From Paracoccus albus (GTDB lineage: Bacteria > Pseudomonadota > Alphaproteobacteria > Rhodobacterales > Rhodobacteraceae): 64,000 nucleotides of DNA. Each line of letters begins with the position of its first letter. Position 1 is the stretch's first letter. Made by a program: the position numbers and the translations under genes. Positions 5,889 to 56,362 of this stretch are shown here, piece after piece. The notes under the pieces were generated by a model. The model was not told where the DNA came from. It saw nothing but the letters and a program-made list of their open reading frames with translations, and made no database searches. Location of the stretch: assembly GCF_027913035.1 (NCBI RefSeq), contig NZ_CP115775.1:2812501-2876500 (forward strand), in the 5' to 3' direction.

Positions 5889-6573
5889 CGAAGAAGACCG
5901 TCTCATTGTCGCCTTGCAGGCGGATTTCGAACCGATAGAGGGGGACACCGTCGCGCTCCCCTTGCCGTTTTGCAAGTAGCGTGGCGCGGCGGTTTTCCCA
6001 TTCGATCAGGTTGAGGACAGGGTCTTCAACATTGGCCTGTTCCTCATCGGCAAAATACATGCGCGTGTTAAGGCCGATATTGATGCCACGCGAAACGATC
6101 CAAAGGCTGATATGCGGAGCCATTGGCGCGTGGCTTTCCATCCGGCCCTGCCAGTCGGGATTGCTTGCCGCGACTTTTTCGGACACGCCCGAGCCCAGCT
6201 TGACGCGCGGACGCACCTTGCCGGGCTTCACCGTGTCAAAACCCCATTCCCCGGTTTCGAAATCGGTGATGATCCGGCCCCAGCCACGAAAGCCATCCTC
6301 AACCTCGCCACCGCCTTCTGGATGGGCATAGATCCCTTCGGAGTTTGCCTGCCAAGCCTCAAGCAGCACGTCCTTGACCGGACTGCCCATGCCGTCGATC
6401 ACCACACCTTCGACCCGAATGCGTTCACCCTTTGCATTCGGTCCGGCAATGTCATGACCCAGTTCTTCGCGGTAAATATCAAAACCCGCGGCCCCCGGCG
6501 CAAGGCCGATATGGACGTAAGGTCCTGCGGTTTGCGAGGGCGTTTCTTTCAGATAGTCAAGCTGCTGCTTCAT
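5881..6573 (-). CDS. pcaG: Protocatechuate 3,4-dioxygenase alpha subunit
   Basis: A 230-residue intradiol dioxygenase subunit with the diagnostic N-terminal 'TPSQTAGPYVHIGLAP' at about residues 11-26 and 'LLEAWQANSEG' near residue 70. With PcaH it cleaves protocatechuate to 3-carboxy-cis,cis-muconate; the alpha subunit shapes the active site while iron is held by beta. It starts 1 bp after the pcaH stop and is followed by an 8-bp overlap with the BKACE gene. Confidence 0.95.
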   Translation of the reverse strand: MKQQLDYLKETPSQTAGPYVHIGLAPGAAGFDIYREELGHDIAGPNAKGERIRVEGVVIDGMGSPVKDVLLEAWQANSEGIYAHPEGGGEVEDGFRGWGRIITDFETGEWGFDTVKPGKVRPRVKLGSGVSEKVAASNPDWQGRMESHAPMAPHISLWIVSRGINIGLNTRMYFADEEQANVEDPVLNLIEWENRRATLLAKRQGERDGVPLYRFEIRLQGDNETVFFDV

Positions 6574-6574
6574 C

Positions 6575-7297
6575 TCAGTTCCCCTCCAGCCGGTTCTCGA
6601 ACAGGGTGGATCGCCGTCCGCGCAGGACGATGTCGAACTTGTAGGCGATACAATCCAGCGGAACAGAGGCGTTCATGTCCAGCCGCGCGATCAACTGTTC
6701 GATGGCGTCGGGGTCCGGGATGGTTGCCACAATCGGGCAAAGCGGAATCAGCGGGTCGCCTTCGAAATAAAGCTGCGTAATCAGCCGCTGGCTGAAGCTG
6801 GAGCCAAAGACAGAGACATGGATATGCGCCGGTCGCCAGTTATTCACCCAGTTCCGCCACGGATAGGCGCCGGGCTTGATGGTGCGGAAGTAGTAATAGC
6901 CGTTCTCATCCGTGATCGTCCGCCCGCAGCCGCCGAAGTTCGGGTCAAGCGCACCCAGATAAGTGTCCTTCTTGTGCCGATAACGGCCCGAGGCATTCGC
7001 CTGCCATATTTCGACCAGCGTATTCGTCACCGGCCGGGCATTTTCGTCCAGCACACGACCATGAACGATGATGCGTTCGCCGACCGGGTCCTGATCCTTG
7101 GCGTAATTCTTGATCAGGTCATTGTCGATCGGGTCTATATCGTTGTGGCCAAAGACCGGGCCAGTAATTTCTGAAACGGATTGCTGCAGCGAAATCATGC
7201 TATATCGCGGGCTGCGTGCAACCGAGGTCTTGTAATCAGGCGTATGTGCCGGAGGCTGACGGGTGCGGTCGCGCTGATAATACTCTGCCGGCTTCAT
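6575..7297 (-). CDS. pcaH: Protocatechuate 3,4-dioxygenase beta subunit
   Basis: A 240-residue catalytic subunit. It contains the intradiol dioxygenase signature around residues 78-105 ('[19 protein letters not shown]', then '[10 protein letters not shown]') and the Tyr/His ligands of the non-haem Fe(III) in '[13 protein letters not shown]' and '[11 protein letters not shown]'. It overlaps pcaC by 4 bp (ATGA) and is followed immediately by pcaG. Order and lengths match known pcaHG pairs. Confidence 0.95.
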
Positions 7298-50719: not shown

Positions 50720-51487
50720 TCAGTTCCGGTTCATCGCCGTCAGCAGCTCACGCGCCGCGCCGGTCAGCAGACCCAGATCGACACCACAGGCAACAAACCG
50801 ATAGCCCATTTCACAATAGCGTTTCGCATCCGCCATATTTGTGGCGAGGATGCCGGGTGCCTTACCCGCTGCAATGATCCGCTTGGCAGTCTGCGCCAGT
50901 TGTTCCTGCACATCGCGTGCGGAGGGATTCCCCAGATAACCAAGCGACGCCGAAAGATCGGAGGGACCGATGAATATTCCGTCAACGCCATCAACAGCAG
51001 CGATTGCCTCTATTTCGTCTAGCGCGGCACGGGTCTCGACCTGAACGATGGTGCAGATCTCGGCATTTGCGGTTTGCAGATAGTCGGGCTGCGTACCGTA
51101 TCGGCTGGCGCGTGTTCCGCCTGCCACGCCGCGTATGCCTTCGGGCGGATAGCGGGTTGCTGCCACGGCGCCGGCGGCTTCTTCGGCATTCTGCACAAAC
51201 GGCACCAATACGGTCTGCGCCCCGACATCGAGGACGCGCTTGATCAGCACCTTGTCGTTCCATGCGGGACGTGCGGCGCAGCTCGCGGTGCCGGTGGCTG
51301 CGGCCTGAAGAAGCGACTGTAATTGCGCAATCTCGACCGGGGCGTGTTCTGTATCGAACAGCAGCCAGTCGAAACCCAGAAGCGACAGGGCCTCGGCGGC
51401 GACAGGGCTGGCAAGGCTCATCCACAGGCCAAGCTGAGTTTCACCCGCCAGCAGGCGCTGCTTAAAAAGGTTTTTCGGTGCCGGCAT
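50720..51487 (-). CDS. hpaI: HpcH/HpaI aldolase family protein, probable 4-hydroxy-2-oxoheptanedioate aldolase
   Basis: A 255-residue TIM-barrel aldolase: 'GLWMSLASPVAAEALSLLGFD' near residues 21-41, 'LFDTEHAP' with the catalytic His, 'VQVETRAALDEIEAI' with the metal-binding Glu near residue 147, and 'GIFIGPSDLSASLGYLG'. It cleaves 4-hydroxy-2-oxoheptanedioate to pyruvate and succinate semialdehyde, the last step of homoprotocatechuate meta-cleavage. The start shares its first base with the hpaH stop. Confidence 0.87.
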   Translation of the reverse strand: MPAPKNLFKQRLLAGETQLGLWMSLASPVAAEALSLLGFDWLLFDTEHAPVEIAQLQSLLQAAATGTASCAARPAWNDKVLIKRVLDVGAQTVLVPFVQNAEEAAGAVAATRYPPEGIRGVAGGTRASRYGTQPDYLQTANAEICTIVQVETRAALDEIEAIAAVDGVDGIFIGPSDLSASLGYLGNPSARDVQEQLAQTAKRIIAAGKAPGILATNMADAKRYCEMGYRFVACGVDLGLLTGAARELLTAMNRN

Positions 51488-52269
51488 CAGACGAACCTGA
51501 CCGCGACAGAGCCGAGCGGGCCGAAATCTGCGTGCAGTGTATCGCCCTTATTGGCCCAGACCGGACGCGTGAAGGACCCGGACAGGATCATGTGACCGGG
51601 TTCCAGAGTGGTCCCGAATGCGCCCAGCTTATTGGCCAGCCACGCCACCGCCATGGCCGGATGGCCCAGCACGCCCGCGGCAATGCCCGTTTCCTCAATC
51701 CCGGCATTGCGATAGAAAATCGCGCCGACCCAACGCAGATCGACCTCATCAGGCCTGACAGGCCGCCCGCCAAGCACCGTCCCCGCAGCGGCCCCATTAT
51801 CGGCGACCGTGTCAAAGATGCGGCGCGGTTCGGTTACGCGGGCGTCGATGATTTCGATGGACGGCACCACCCATTCGGTCGCACGCAACACATCGACCAG
51901 ACCCACGCCGGGGCCTTTCAGTGGCTCTTTCAGGATAAAGGTCAGCTCAGGCTCGACGCGCGGCACGCAGAAACTGTCAAACGGAACCTCGGCACCGTCC
52001 TGCAACACCAGATCGTCGAACATATAGCCGTAATCCGGCTCATCTATCTTGGACGCGGCCTGCATCGCCTTGGAGGTCAGCCCGACCTTGTGACCAACGA
52101 TGCGGCGGCCTTCGGCGATTTTCGCGTCGGCCACCATCGACGAAATGGCATAGCTGTCCTCGATCTCGATCTCGGGGAACATCTCGGAAGGGCGCTTGCC
52201 CTGCACCTTGGTTCGGTGGCTTTCCAGAAGCGAGGCGACGGCCTCGCGGCGTTGTGCATCACTGAGCAT
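51487..52269 (-). CDS. hpaH: 2-oxohept-3-ene-1,7-dioate hydratase
   Basis: A 260-residue FAH-fold hydratase starting 'MLSDAQRREAVASLLESH', with 'HKVGLTSKAMQAASKIDEPDYGYM'-type region near 60 and metal ligands in 'RVEPELTFIL'. It hydrates 2-oxohept-3-enedioate for HpaI. An in-frame extension upstream runs inside the chimeric gene and is rejected; the start at 52269 lies 8 bp after that gene's stop. Confidence 0.88.
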   Translation of the reverse strand: MLSDAQRREAVASLLESHRTKVQGKRPSEMFPEIEIEDSYAISSMVADAKIAEGRRIVGHKVGLTSKAMQAASKIDEPDYGYMFDDLVLQDGAEVPFDSFCVPRVEPELTFILKEPLKGPGVGLVDVLRATEWVVPSIEIIDARVTEPRRIFDTVADNGAAAGTVLGGRPVRPDEVDLRWVGAIFYRNAGIEETGIAAGVLGHPAMAVAWLANKLGAFGTTLEPGHMILSGSFTRPVWANKGDTLHADFGPLGSVAVRFV

Positions 52270-52277
52270 CTTCGGAC

Positions 52278-53669
52278 CTATAGTTTGACGCAGACATTGC
52301 GCAGTTCGGAATAGAATTCCATCGAATGGACCCCACCCTCGCGGCCGATCCCGCTGGATTTCGCGCCGCCAAAGGGCGTGCGCAGATCGCGCAGGAACCA
52401 GCAATTCACCCAGCTTATGCCGACCTCGACGCCTGCTGCCACGCGGTGGGCCCGTTGCAGGTTGGTCGTCCAGATCGACGTGGCAAGCCCATAGGGCGAG
52501 TTATTGGCAAGGGCCACGGCCTCATCTTCGCTGTCGAAGGGCTGAAGATGCGTGCAGGGGCCAAAGATTTCGTCGGTGACGACGGCGGCATCCTCGGGCA
52601 GGCCGGTCCAGACGGTGGGTTCGACCCAATAGCCGCCCTCATATCCCTGCATTTCGGGCGCGCCGCCCCCGGCCAGAATGTTGGCCCCGGTAGCACGGGC
52701 CTTGTCGTAATAGGACAGCACCTTCTGGCGATGTTCTGCGGAAATCACCGGCCCCATCGTCGTGGCATTGTCGAACGGGTCGCCAAGGCGATAGCTGCGG
52801 GCCTGTTTGGCCAGCCCCTCGGCCACGCGATCAAAGACACCACGCTGGACATAGATGCGTTCGGTCCCCAGACAGACCTGCCCGGTATTGGCGAAGCACG
52901 CCCGCCCGATACCCTCCATCGTCGCCTCAAAATCAGCGTCGTCGAAGATGATACCGGGATTTTTGCCGCCCGTGCCACCGGACAAGGCAAAGACCGAATG
53001 CGGGCCGATATCACACCAGCGGGGGGCAAGCGCCTCGGTCACGGCACGTTCTGTATCCTCTAGGCTTGCCGCGCCGGTGGTTACCAGATGCACGGCCTCT
53101 CGCCACAGGGCAAGCTGAAGGCGATTGACCAGATGCCCCTTCACAGGCTTATGCAGTGTCAGGACGGTCTTGCCCGCGCCTTCATAGATTTGTCGCGCGG
53201 AATCGATCGCCTGTGGTTGACAGACCGATCCGGCCGACATCTCGACCACCGGCATGAGCCAGGGCGGATTGCACGGATGACCGATAAGCAGACGGTCGGC
53301 AAGGCCCGTCTCTTCCGCAATCTGATCGGCTGTAAAGGTGGACGAACTGGAAGCAATCGCCCTCGCCTGCGCCAGAACCGGCGCAATGGCGCGCAGAGCG
53401 CGCCGCTTTAGTGCAAGATCTTCTGGCAGCGCCTCTTGCAGGAAATCGGCCCGCGCGGCGTCATCAGTGCTACCAATACGTGGAGGCGTGGCTTCGGCGG
53501 TCAGCCGGCCCATCTGCTCCAAAACGGGTCGGGCCTGTTGCCAGCAATCGCTCAACCTGTCTGCCGCAACCGGATCTGGATCAAGCGCCACGACATCATG
53601 ACCCGCCGCCCCGAAGGCCACAGCCCATCCTGTCCCGATCAGCCCGCCGCCGAGGACAGCGAGGCGCAT
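52278..53669 (-). pseudogene. Chimeric 3-hydroxyacyl-CoA dehydrogenase N-half / aldehyde dehydrogenase C-half (deletion fusion)
   Basis: The frame is open for 463 residues from MRLAVLGGG at 53669, which overlaps the dctM stop as TGATG. Residues 1 to ~235 match a 3-hydroxyacyl-CoA/L-carnitine dehydrogenase: NAD motif 'VLGGGLIGTGWAVAFG' and catalytic His in 'IGHPCNPP', up to 'RWCDIGPHSVFALSGG'. The sequence then switches to ALDH at 'GGKNPGIIFDDADFEATM', keeps the catalytic Cys (GQVCLGTE, residue 266), and ends 'MEFYSELRNVCVKL' like 2-hydroxymuconate/HpaE-type semialdehyde dehydrogenases. About 80 residues of the first enzyme and ~250 of the second, including NAD-binding PWN and the catalytic Glu, are absent. 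The junction is near 52965-52985 over GGC-rich microhomology. Neither activity is likely to survive. Confidence 0.85.
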
Positions 53670-54940
53670 CAGCCCAGCCAATTGTTCAAGCCCAGTGTCA
53701 GCACCGGGAACAGGGCCAGCATCACCAAAACCAAGGCGACCGCCAGAAAGAACGGTGTGATCAGCATGGCCAGGCGTTCCGCCCGAACGTTGCCCATCAT
53801 AGAAGCCGCAAAAAGCCCTGTCCCGACCGGTGGCGTCAGCAGGCCAGCGGTCAGGTTAAGACAGACGATAACGCCGAACTGAAAAGGGTCGATGTTGTAA
53901 ATGTTCACCGCGACCGGCAGGAACACGGGTACAACAAGGATGATCGCTGGTATGGGATCAGTGATCATGCCCAGAAGCAGCAGCATCAGGTTGATCAGCA
54001 GCAGAAAGATCAGCGGTGAGGTCGTCACGCTTTGCAGCCAGGCCGATACGATTGCGGGCAGGTTGTTAAAGGTGATGACCCAGGAAAACAGCCCGGCCGC
54101 CGCGATCAGGAACAGCACCACGGCAGAGGACGCGCCCGCCCTGATGAAGGAAGGCCAGATATCGGACCATTCCATCTCTCGATAGACGAAACGCCCGATC
54201 AGGATCGCCAGAATGCTGGCCACTGCCGCGGACTCCGTTGGTGTCGCGATACCGCCAAGGATGGTGCCGATGATGACGACCGGGATCAGCGCGGCGGGCA
54301 GAGCATCCCGCGCGGCGCGAACACGCTGCGTCATCGTCACCTTTTCGCTGCGGGGAAAGTCATATCTTTGCCCGAGCCAACCAATCACGGCCAGGAAGAC
54401 GATAAACAGGATCACCCCCGGCACGATCCCGGCAATGAACAGGTCCCCAATGGGAAGCTGAGCAATGACTCCAAAGATAATGAACAGCATGGAGGGCGGT
54501 ATGATCGGCGCAAGCATTCCGCCTGCCGCCGTAATCGCGACCGAGACATCGCGTGGATAGCCCGTGCGCTCCATCTCGGGCACGGCGACACGCGACATGA
54601 TGGTGATCTGCGCGACGGTAGAGCCAAGAATCGACGCCATCATCATATTAGCCACAAGGTTCACATAGGCCAGCCCGCCCTTAACAGATCCAAGCAATGC
54701 GACCGCAAGGTTCATCAGGCGTCGTCCGATGCCGCCGGCATTCATGAACTCACCAAGCAAAATGAAAAGTGGCAGGGCTAGAAGTCCGTAATTCTCCAGC
54801 CCGCCGAAGAACTGTTGCGGAAAGCTCTGGAAAAGGATGGCGTTACCGCTGGCCCATATCATGATCATGGCAAAAGCGATAAGCGCGAAAGCAATCGGCA
54901 CACCGATGACAAGCATTGCCAGGAAGGACAGCCCGGTCAT
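53669..54940 (-). CDS. TRAP transporter large permease (DctM type)
   Basis: A 423-residue DctM protein with 'GGMLAPIIPPSMLFIIFGVI' near residue 140 and 'GGIATPTESAAVASILAILI' near 227. It overlaps dctQ (4 bp) and the chimeric gene (1 bp). No DctP gene is linked to this pair. It probably imported an aromatic or phenylacetic-type acid for the hpa genes (inference). Confidence 0.9.
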   Translation of the reverse strand: MTGLSFLAMLVIGVPIAFALIAFAMIMIWASGNAILFQSFPQQFFGGLENYGLLALPLFILLGEFMNAGGIGRRLMNLAVALLGSVKGGLAYVNLVANMMMASILGSTVAQITIMSRVAVPEMERTGYPRDVSVAITAAGGMLAPIIPPSMLFIIFGVIAQLPIGDLFIAGIVPGVILFIVFLAVIGWLGQRYDFPRSEKVTMTQRVRAARDALPAALIPVVIIGTILGGIATPTESAAVASILAILIGRFVYREMEWSDIWPSFIRAGASSAVVLFLIAAAGLFSWVITFNNLPAIVSAWLQSVTTSPLIFLLLINLMLLLLGMITDPIPAIILVVPVFLPVAVNIYNIDPFQFGVIVCLNLTAGLLTPPVGTGLFAASMMGNVRAERLAMLITPFFLAVALVLVMLALFPVLTLGLNNWLG

Positions 54941-55497
54941 TGCAACTTATCCGGCGCGGGCTTGCCAAAGCGGGCGGCAACATGGATCAGCCCTGAGAAA
55001 CAGAAAAACGGCATGATCAGCCAGAACCATAGCTTGCGGATACCAAGCGTCGTCGTCGGCTCCTGATACATGAAATTAAAGCTGTCGCGGGCGTAATCCG
55101 ACATGCTTTCCGCGGCAATTACGCCGGGCAGATCAAACCAGTTCCACAGGGTCCAGCCGAAAATCAGCAGGATCGCCAGCAGGACGGTATCAACCACGCG
55201 CAGCAGATTTTTCTGTGCGCCGGGCCCAAGCCTATCGGCCAGAAGCGTTACGGCCAGATGCTCGCGGTTTGCGATTCCAAGCGACGCACCGGCAAAGGCA
55301 CCTACAACCATGAGATACACCGCCAACTCATCTGTCCAGATCAGCGGTCGCCCGAAAGCACGCGAGACGACATTTGCCAGCAGCAGCGCCAGTACCGTAA
55401 GGATCATAAGCCCGGTCAGTCGCGCCTCGGCCCAAGCGAATCCCGCACTCAGCCTTTGCAGCGGACCCGATATCTCACTCTGTGGAAGCTCGGCCAT
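54937..55497 (-). CDS. TRAP transporter small permease (DctQ type)
   Basis: A 186-residue four-helix protein ('AFGRPLIWTDELAVYLMVVG' near residue 48 is the DctQ core). It is the first gene of the hpa-remnant operon, divergent from the GntR gene. No binding-protein gene precedes it. Confidence 0.87.
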   Translation of the reverse strand: MAELPQSEISGPLQRLSAGFAWAEARLTGLMILTVLALLLANVVSRAFGRPLIWTDELAVYLMVVGAFAGASLGIANREHLAVTLLADRLGPGAQKNLLRVVDTVLLAILLIFGWTLWNWFDLPGVIAAESMSDYARDSFNFMYQEPTTTLGIRKLWFWLIMPFFCFSGLIHVAARFGKPAPDKLQ

Positions 55498-55563
55498 AAT
55501 CCCCCCAATTGCTTAGAGAGATCGCACATACTGGTTTGCCTCCCTCCGGAAATTGAATAAATA

Positions 55564-55600
55564 TCGATATTTTTATTCTGTCAAACCTAAAATCGATATT
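55564..55600. promoter_or_regulatory. Paired TCGATATT boxes upstream of gntR
   Basis: TCGATATT occurs at 55564-55571 (inside the palindrome ATATCGATAT, 55561-55570) and at 55593-55600, a 29-bp spacing close to three helical turns. They lie in the dctQ-gntR divergent gap and are plausible GntR operators. Confidence 0.55.
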
Positions 55601-55666
55601 CTTGCGCTTGCCGATCAGCTTGGATACGCTTGCCCAGACAAGTCACATAAAAAGAGGTCGCCTGCG

Positions 55667-56362
55667 TTGAACCAGTTTGAGCCTGAAGTGCAGGAAAAAA
55701 CGCTGTCCGAACGCGCCTATCGCGTTATCCGCGAAGACATCGTTTCGGGTAAGCTTGCGCCCAGTCAGAAGCTGAAGATCGACATGTTGCGGCAGCGCTA
55801 TAGTCTGAATGCGAGCCCACTGCGCGAGGCTCTGTCGCGATTGGCTGGCGATAATCTGGTCGAGGTTTTGGGCCAGCGGGGATTTGCCGTTGCCCCGATC
55901 TATCCCCGCGATGCCGAGGAAATCGGCGACCTCCGCAAGATGCTGGAGGCAGAGGCATTGGCGCGCTCCATCCCGCGCGGCGATAGCGCATGGGAAGAAC
56001 GACTGATTACCGCCTATCATCGCTTGTCGCGCTATGAGGTCGGGCACGATCAGGGCATTGACGAACTGGCCGCATGGGAACTGCGGAATTTCGAGTTCCA
56101 CGAAGCAACGGTCGCTGCCTGTGACAGCCTCTGGCTGCTGCGCGTGCGCGAACAGCTGTTCCGCCAACATGAGCGCTATCGCCGCTTCAGCCGCATCATG
56201 TCGGTCGCCACGCGGGCCATTCATGACGAACACGAAGCCCTGTTCGAAGCCTGTATCGCCCGCAACGTCACCCTCGCACAGGATGTGATCGCCAGCCACA
56301 TCCAGCGTACCACCGATGCGGTCACCTCTGCTCTAAAAGAGAATGGCGATAGGCAGGATTAA
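55667..56362 (+). CDS. GntR-family (FCD) transcriptional regulator
   Basis: A 231-residue FadR-subfamily regulator. The winged helix covers residues ~10-75 ('QRYSLNASPLREALSRLAGDNLVEV') and an all-helical FCD effector domain follows, ending 'DVIASHIQRTTDAVTSAL'. TTG at 55667 is the preferred start because AAAGAGG lies 9 bp upstream and the length fits the family. An earlier in-frame TTG at 55553 would begin in the operator. It is divergent from the TRAP/hpa genes and likely controls them. Confidence 0.85.
   Translation: MNQFEPEVQEKTLSERAYRVIREDIVSGKLAPSQKLKIDMLRQRYSLNASPLREALSRLAGDNLVEVLGQRGFAVAPIYPRDAEEIGDLRKMLEAEALARSIPRGDSAWEERLITAYHRLSRYEVGHDQGIDELAAWELRNFEFHEATVAACDSLWLLRVREQLFRQHERYRRFSRIMSVATRAIHDEHEALFEACIARNVTLAQDVIASHIQRTTDAVTSALKENGDRQD

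Follow-up and report, generated by a model that had tools for sequence, protein, structure and literature searches.

The window analysed here, a 64,000-nucleotide stretch of the Paracoccus albus genome, carries a hybrid gene on its minus strand that we attribute, with a probability of about 0.94, to a recent single deletion of ~4.5 kb in a likely catabolic operon, which fused a dehydrogenase at about codon 232 in frame to a 2-hydroxymuconic semialdehyde dehydrogenase (HMSD) at about codon 255 and would have left an inactive product. We consider the fusion gene to be real, and most likely a recent, inactive and otherwise ordinary scar. Its reading frame (52278..53669, minus strand, ATG at 53669) is open throughout and encodes 463 amino acids, joining the N-terminal part of the dehydrogenase to the C-terminal part of HMSD. 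This bears out the preliminary description, which had proposed an in-frame chimera of a 3-hydroxyacyl-CoA dehydrogenase and an aldehyde dehydrogenase. Pfam models place a nearly complete 3HCDH_N domain (PF02737, profile positions 2-177 of 180, E 8e-30) at residues 3-172, the beginning of the 3HCDH C-domain (PF00725) at residues 178-219, and an Aldedh match (PF00171, profile positions 236-461 of 461, E 4.2e-77) at residues 233-459. The Pfam partner changes around residues 230-235, in agreement with the abrupt switch in homology noticed near residue 235. Only positions 1-42 of 97 remain of the PF00725 profile, as expected from the suggested loss of the dehydrogenase C-terminal domain (the intact Stappia dehydrogenase matches positions 1-68 of 97); the fusion lacks the two complete domains of a 3-hydroxyacyl-CoA dehydrogenase. 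The retained dehydrogenase part (52974..53669, minus strand) spans codons 1 to ~232, comprising the NAD-binding domain and the start of the C-terminal domain, and the retained HMSD part (52278..52970, minus strand) supplies the last 230 codons, corresponding to residues 255-484 of the intact HMSD P0002, with the conserved Cys266.

The best family match of the aldehyde dehydrogenase partner is HMSD (TIGR03216), which aligns with fusion residues 229-463 over profile positions 246-481 at 381.2 bits, short of the cut-off of 693.25; intact P0002 reaches 814.9 bits with this model, versus 477.4 for HpaE. The gene hpaE had been named as the partner. However, HpaE (TIGR02299) scores 235.1 bits on the fusion, below both the HMSD score and its own cut-off of 638.35, and is ruled out by scoring lower than TIGR03216 in the fusion and in intact P0002 alike. 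A genuine hpaE sits elsewhere in the genome (C1:2169.2-2170.7 kb, 772.2 bits against 638.35), in an hpaD/hpaE pair at C1:2168.2-2170.7 kb whose members each exceed their family cut-off. The dehydrogenase half remains far under the cut-offs of its nearest named models (NF004783, 178.1 bits; NF005716, 139.7 bits), and its intact relative P0066 (303 residues), best related among solved structures to 4om8 and the lambda-crystallins, falls below the cut-off of every listed named model (e.g. 196.5 vs 347 bits). We therefore assign no reaction to this partner. The dehydrogenase part is 77% identical to P0066 and 80% to its counterpart in Pukyongiella litopenaei, the species in which the HMSD part finds 92-93% identity.

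P. litopenaei (locus L155, genome G394) is the closest intact relative found: its locus encodes residues 2-484 of P0002 exactly, and P0002 carries this species label in the protein search. Our literature search on P. litopenaei returned nothing. The L155 locus reads GntR, divergent, followed by DctQ-DctM-dehydrogenase-DctP-VOC1-VOC2-AldII-HMSD-HpaH-HpaI, and the window is collinear with it apart from one gap of 4,502 bases ending at window positions 52970-52974. The first blastn block (3386 bases, 81.2% identity) covers DctQ, DctM and the dehydrogenase part, and the second (2240 bases, 84.2% identity) starts at the HMSD part; the two are adjacent in the window and 4,502 bases apart in L155. 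Within the gap lie the dehydrogenase tail, the TRAP binding protein DctP, a pair of extradiol-type VOC proteins, a protein of class II aldolase fold and the front half of HMSD. A recombinational deletion had been put forward as the simplest reading, and the single gap against a collinear intact relative, with four whole genes also lost, strengthens it.

The retained neighbours flank the hybrid closely. Upstream lie the TRAP large permease DctM (53669..54940, minus strand, 423 aa), whose stop overlaps the fusion start (TGATG), and the small permease DctQ (54937..55497, minus strand, 186 aa). Downstream, the HpaH-type hydratase (51487..52269, minus strand, 260 aa) starts with an ATG at 52269, eight bases past the fusion stop codon, and passes its family cut-off (TIGR02312, 357.4 bits against 351.5, in a scan that included two additional residues at the N-terminus). 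It is followed by an HpcH/HpaI-family aldolase (50720..51487, minus strand, 255 aa), which scores 320 bits with TIGR02311, below the cut-off of 368.8. A divergent GntR/FCD regulator ORF (55553..56362, plus strand) has counterparts near the cluster in 15 of the 16 other genomes examined. The cluster looks like one for the breakdown of aromatic compounds, presumably transcribed as an operon. DctQ and DctM (window 53669-55497) are left without the DctP of their own cluster, which sat in the deleted stretch.

The comparison with relatives covered 16 other genomes, drawn from 8 of 80 protein-matched loci (L018-L025), 4 of 124 other genomes of the genus (E < 1e-100) and 6 of 14 other genomes of the family; L157 and L158 duplicate the records L021 and L022, each of which is counted once, and 8 more family genomes, with DNA identities of 67-72%, lie outside the set. 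The remaining 72 of the 80 loci were matched by script, and none extended over 8 kb with an HMSD half of at least 70% identity. All eleven genes are kept in 10 of the 16 genomes, and four genes separate the dehydrogenase from HMSD in each of these ten full clusters, indicating that the fusion arose by internal deletion and not by simple joining of neighbours. The preliminary description had suggested looking for the uninterrupted order in relatives: collinear intact clusters exist, and the intervening genes are absent here, which supports the deletion. The TRAP genes occur at L024 and L130 with no dehydrogenase match, and at three further loci (L022, L023 and L159) neither TRAP genes nor the dehydrogenase are present in the stretch examined, the L023 sequence ending within HpaI. 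At L130 (G109) and L024, the TRAP genes are accompanied by the VOC pair, and the interval from DctM to DctP holds no match to the dehydrogenase; the dehydrogenase gene thus seems to be optional in the cluster.

The VOC1-VOC2-AldII-HMSD-HpaH set is kept in 15 of the 16 genomes, the VOC pair and the class II aldolase-fold protein standing beside HMSD and HpaH (L018:4809-7239 and equivalents). This set may encode a meta-cleavage-like pathway; a 2,3-dihydroxybenzoate meta-cleavage cluster described in PMC6362003 has a different gene set. Among the matches listed, HMSD was detected at the DNA level (E < 1e-100) in five of 125 genomes of the genus, the window included. One of them, a draft genome 86% complete (L131, G121:C75:5500-20500), bears another, distinct deletion in this cluster at about 6513-6860, where DctQ is matched to residue 93 and is followed, out of frame, by AldII, with DctM, the dehydrogenase, DctP, VOC1 and VOC2 missing. 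Internal deletions, each different, hence affect two of the five carriers of the genus (the window and G121), suggesting that the pathway is easily lost.

At the junction (52970..52974, minus strand), three bases (52971-52973) lie between the two aligned blocks where the DNA changes partner. Codons 231-237 read GGT GGC ACG GGC GGC AAA AAT, and at the protein level the joining points are SGGAGGMAG in P0066 and ELGGKN in HMSD. The GGCGGC of codons 234-235 (52965..52970, minus strand) fits both parents, and this hexamer, perhaps one base longer at either end, may have been common to the two. In P. litopenaei, the dehydrogenase reads SGGRQGMAG at the joining point, without GGCGGC, and within 60 bases either side the two L155 ends have no exact word in common beyond 8 bases, the one of that length being offset differently at each end; we therefore only infer a short-homology deletion. 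The junction falls inside the range near 52965-52985 proposed for GGC-rich microhomology; the repeat is matched on both parental sides at the protein level only and is absent from P. litopenaei DNA. Microhomology at the junction is plausible, and the deletion would probably have occurred between short GGC-rich stretches, by short-homology slippage or end joining. No direct repeats of at least 14 bases occur in window 52000-54000, a search that covers repeats still present, not lost ones.

We sought the lost genes elsewhere in the genome. Family models, run on the Stappia copies (L018), identify DctP as a TRAP solute-binding protein and place VOC1 and VOC2 in the glyoxalase/extradiol dioxygenase fold, with scores that stay far short of the cut-offs for named dioxygenases. 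By the same models, AldII has a class II aldolase fold and weakly resembles 3,4-dihydroxyphthalate decarboxylase. Across all contigs, neither VOC1 nor AldII was detected; the AldII search, the only one with a separate positive control, recovered the gene in 4 of 4 relatives. No orthologue of VOC2 was found, the sole match (27%) lying in a gene identified as HpaD by family model, and none of DctP, for which the 15 matches share 22-32% identity with the Stappia protein. The HMSD front half gave matches solely inside 18 other ALDH-type places, with identities of 29-44%. An intact copy of either parent was likewise looked for in the genome and not found, which favours the deletion.

Among the matches listed, the hybrid itself occurs in this genome only. 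A search of ~5.8 billion proteins, in which 8000 candidates were scored and 7998 matched, returned no second protein spanning both halves among the 120 matches listed, the others covering 49-55% of the query; the window's own protein is represented there by one member on one contig. At the DNA level, apart from the window itself, none of the matches listed among 125 genomes of the genus and 394 of the family extends farther than some ten bases past the junction. Widespread conserved homologues, which would have argued for function, are therefore missing from the matches listed, and the deletion reading stands. Some ALDH protein matches start before the junction, at residue 191 in G025, 206 in several loci and 204 in a separate search. 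Two of these were inspected as possible fusions, G025 (L163, where the matched stretch was scanned and the ORF read) and L033, and both proved to be ordinary aldehyde dehydrogenases.

The age of the event was approached through the pattern of substitutions, using raw counts of unique changes with one outgroup (G411). Unique amino-acid changes in the window and in P. litopenaei number 5 and 7 in the HMSD part, 9 and 12 in the dehydrogenase part, 2 and 11 in HpaH, 6 and 12 in DctM, 10 and 7 in DctQ, and 9 and 9 in HpaI. Synonymous unique changes are higher in the window in all six (DctQ 29/8, DctM 76/27, dehydrogenase part 16/14, HMSD part 32/21, HpaH 41/23, HpaI 28/26). At invariant positions, defined as unchanged in at least five outgroup sequences, changes in the window and in P. 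litopenaei amount to 0/0 of 139 in the HMSD part, 1/1 of 62 in the dehydrogenase part, 0/4 of 182 in HpaH, 2/5 of 223 in DctM, 1/0 of 45 in DctQ and 6/7 of 120 in HpaI. For the single pair of window and P. litopenaei, YN00 gave dN/dS of 0.038/1.205 for the HMSD part, 0.123/0.806 for the dehydrogenase part, 0.022/1.158 for HpaH, 0.041/1.249 for DctM, 0.121/0.898 for DctQ and 0.092/1.124 for HpaI. Neither half of the fusion shows an excess of amino-acid change over P. litopenaei; the decay that had been envisaged is not visible, and both halves are conserved as in the intact relative. Given a dS of about 1.2 between the two sequences and some 522 non-synonymous sites for the HMSD part, a tenth of the window's branch spent under neutral drift would, by a rough estimate, have added ~30 changes to this part. 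The few changes observed indicate that the event is recent or that the protein is still constrained; the absence of decay would fit a recent event and, equally, a retained function. We prefer the recent event because the same deletion removed the rest of the pathway and because the fusion was found once, and the date would accordingly be recent.

A further possibility, compatible with the deletion, is that the fusion is an inactive scar whose open frame has been kept to preserve translation of HpaH and HpaI (and of the upstream permeases) for other use. With its frame open, the fusion still overlaps DctM at TGATG and ends eight bases ahead of HpaH, so that HpaH and HpaI could still be translated as usual, and window-unique amino-acid changes are few in HpaH (2 vs 11) and DctM (6 vs 12). 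However, a recent deletion accounts for the same conservation, in-frame joining is expected one time in three by chance, DctQ has no such low count (10 vs 7), and the G121 deletion of the same cluster is out of frame. We regard selection for the open frame as unlikely, while granting it a small share of the probability.

The product of the fusion is predicted to be inactive as HMSD, since the HMSD coenzyme domain and general base are both missing. The losses of the NAD fold and of the general-base Glu claimed for the aldehyde dehydrogenase are confirmed: by alignment, Glu253 of P0002 (in ELGGK) corresponds to Gly232 in the dehydrogenase-derived part, leaving the catalytic Cys266 without its Glu. 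In the related enzyme AMSDH, the E268A substitution left no detectable steady-state activity, and neither did the change of Cys302 to serine (PMC4286809). Since the VOC pair, AldII and DctP were lost as well, the pathway as a whole is most likely inactive: the deletion would have left a pathway without its ring-cleavage-type proteins and a transporter without its own binding protein.

The preliminary description had raised a more exciting alternative, a Rossmann-domain swap in which the HMSD coenzyme domain was replaced by the dehydrogenase NAD-binding domain to give a new working enzyme. Cys266, Glu367 of EIFGP and the dehydrogenase stretches GGGLIG, GHPCNPP and HLVNR are all kept, neither half shows excess amino-acid change, and the cut falls near what we take to be the ALDH domain boundary. 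Against this, the general-base Glu is replaced by Gly232, the equivalent of the inactivating loss in AMSDH; the protein has neither the N-terminal half of HMSD nor most of the C-terminal domain of the dehydrogenase; the cluster lost its two ring-cleavage-type genes in the same event; and the hybrid occurs in one genome only, among the matches listed. The swap has no direct support, although the absence of decay is compatible with it, and we hold it to be highly improbable. Equally far-fetched is its full form, in which the hybrid is folded, expressed and maintained by selection and has acquired a new activity as an oxidoreductase, an esterase or a trap for aldehydes; if true, this would be a domain swap of natural origin observed just as it arose. 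Finally, an assembly collapse, in which 4.5 kb of a cluster that is intact in the strain were passed over during assembly, is very unlikely. It would need a long repeat at both ends, whereas the L155 ends share no exact word above 8 bases, and that word is offset differently at each. In addition, the contig holding the window is 3.3 Mb long, the genome (5 contigs) is given as 99.99% complete, and a search of all contigs found no orthologue of the missing genes.

Taken together, these results support the recent deletion and provide a clean example of an in-frame hybrid gene arising in a single step; automatic annotation might easily label it an aldehyde dehydrogenase though the rest of its cluster is gone. 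Compared with the 3-hydroxyacyl-CoA dehydrogenase superfamily (PF02737 and PF00725), whose nearest named models here are NF004783 (generic) and NF005471/NF005716 (carnitine dehydrogenases), the fusion is alike over residues 1-232 and lacks the last ~70 residues. Compared with the HMSD family (TIGR03216), it keeps the C-terminal half, the solved relatives of which are 2-aminomuconate 6-semialdehyde dehydrogenases such as 7bzv and 4i1w, and lacks the front half with the coenzyme domain and general-base Glu. Gene fusions through internal deletion in gene clusters are a general phenomenon. As expected of a fusion of that origin, the intact parents are present in collinear relatives and the missing genes are not found elsewhere in the genome; here too both partners are cut, there is one junction and the intervening genes are lost, so that this case differs only in the genes concerned.
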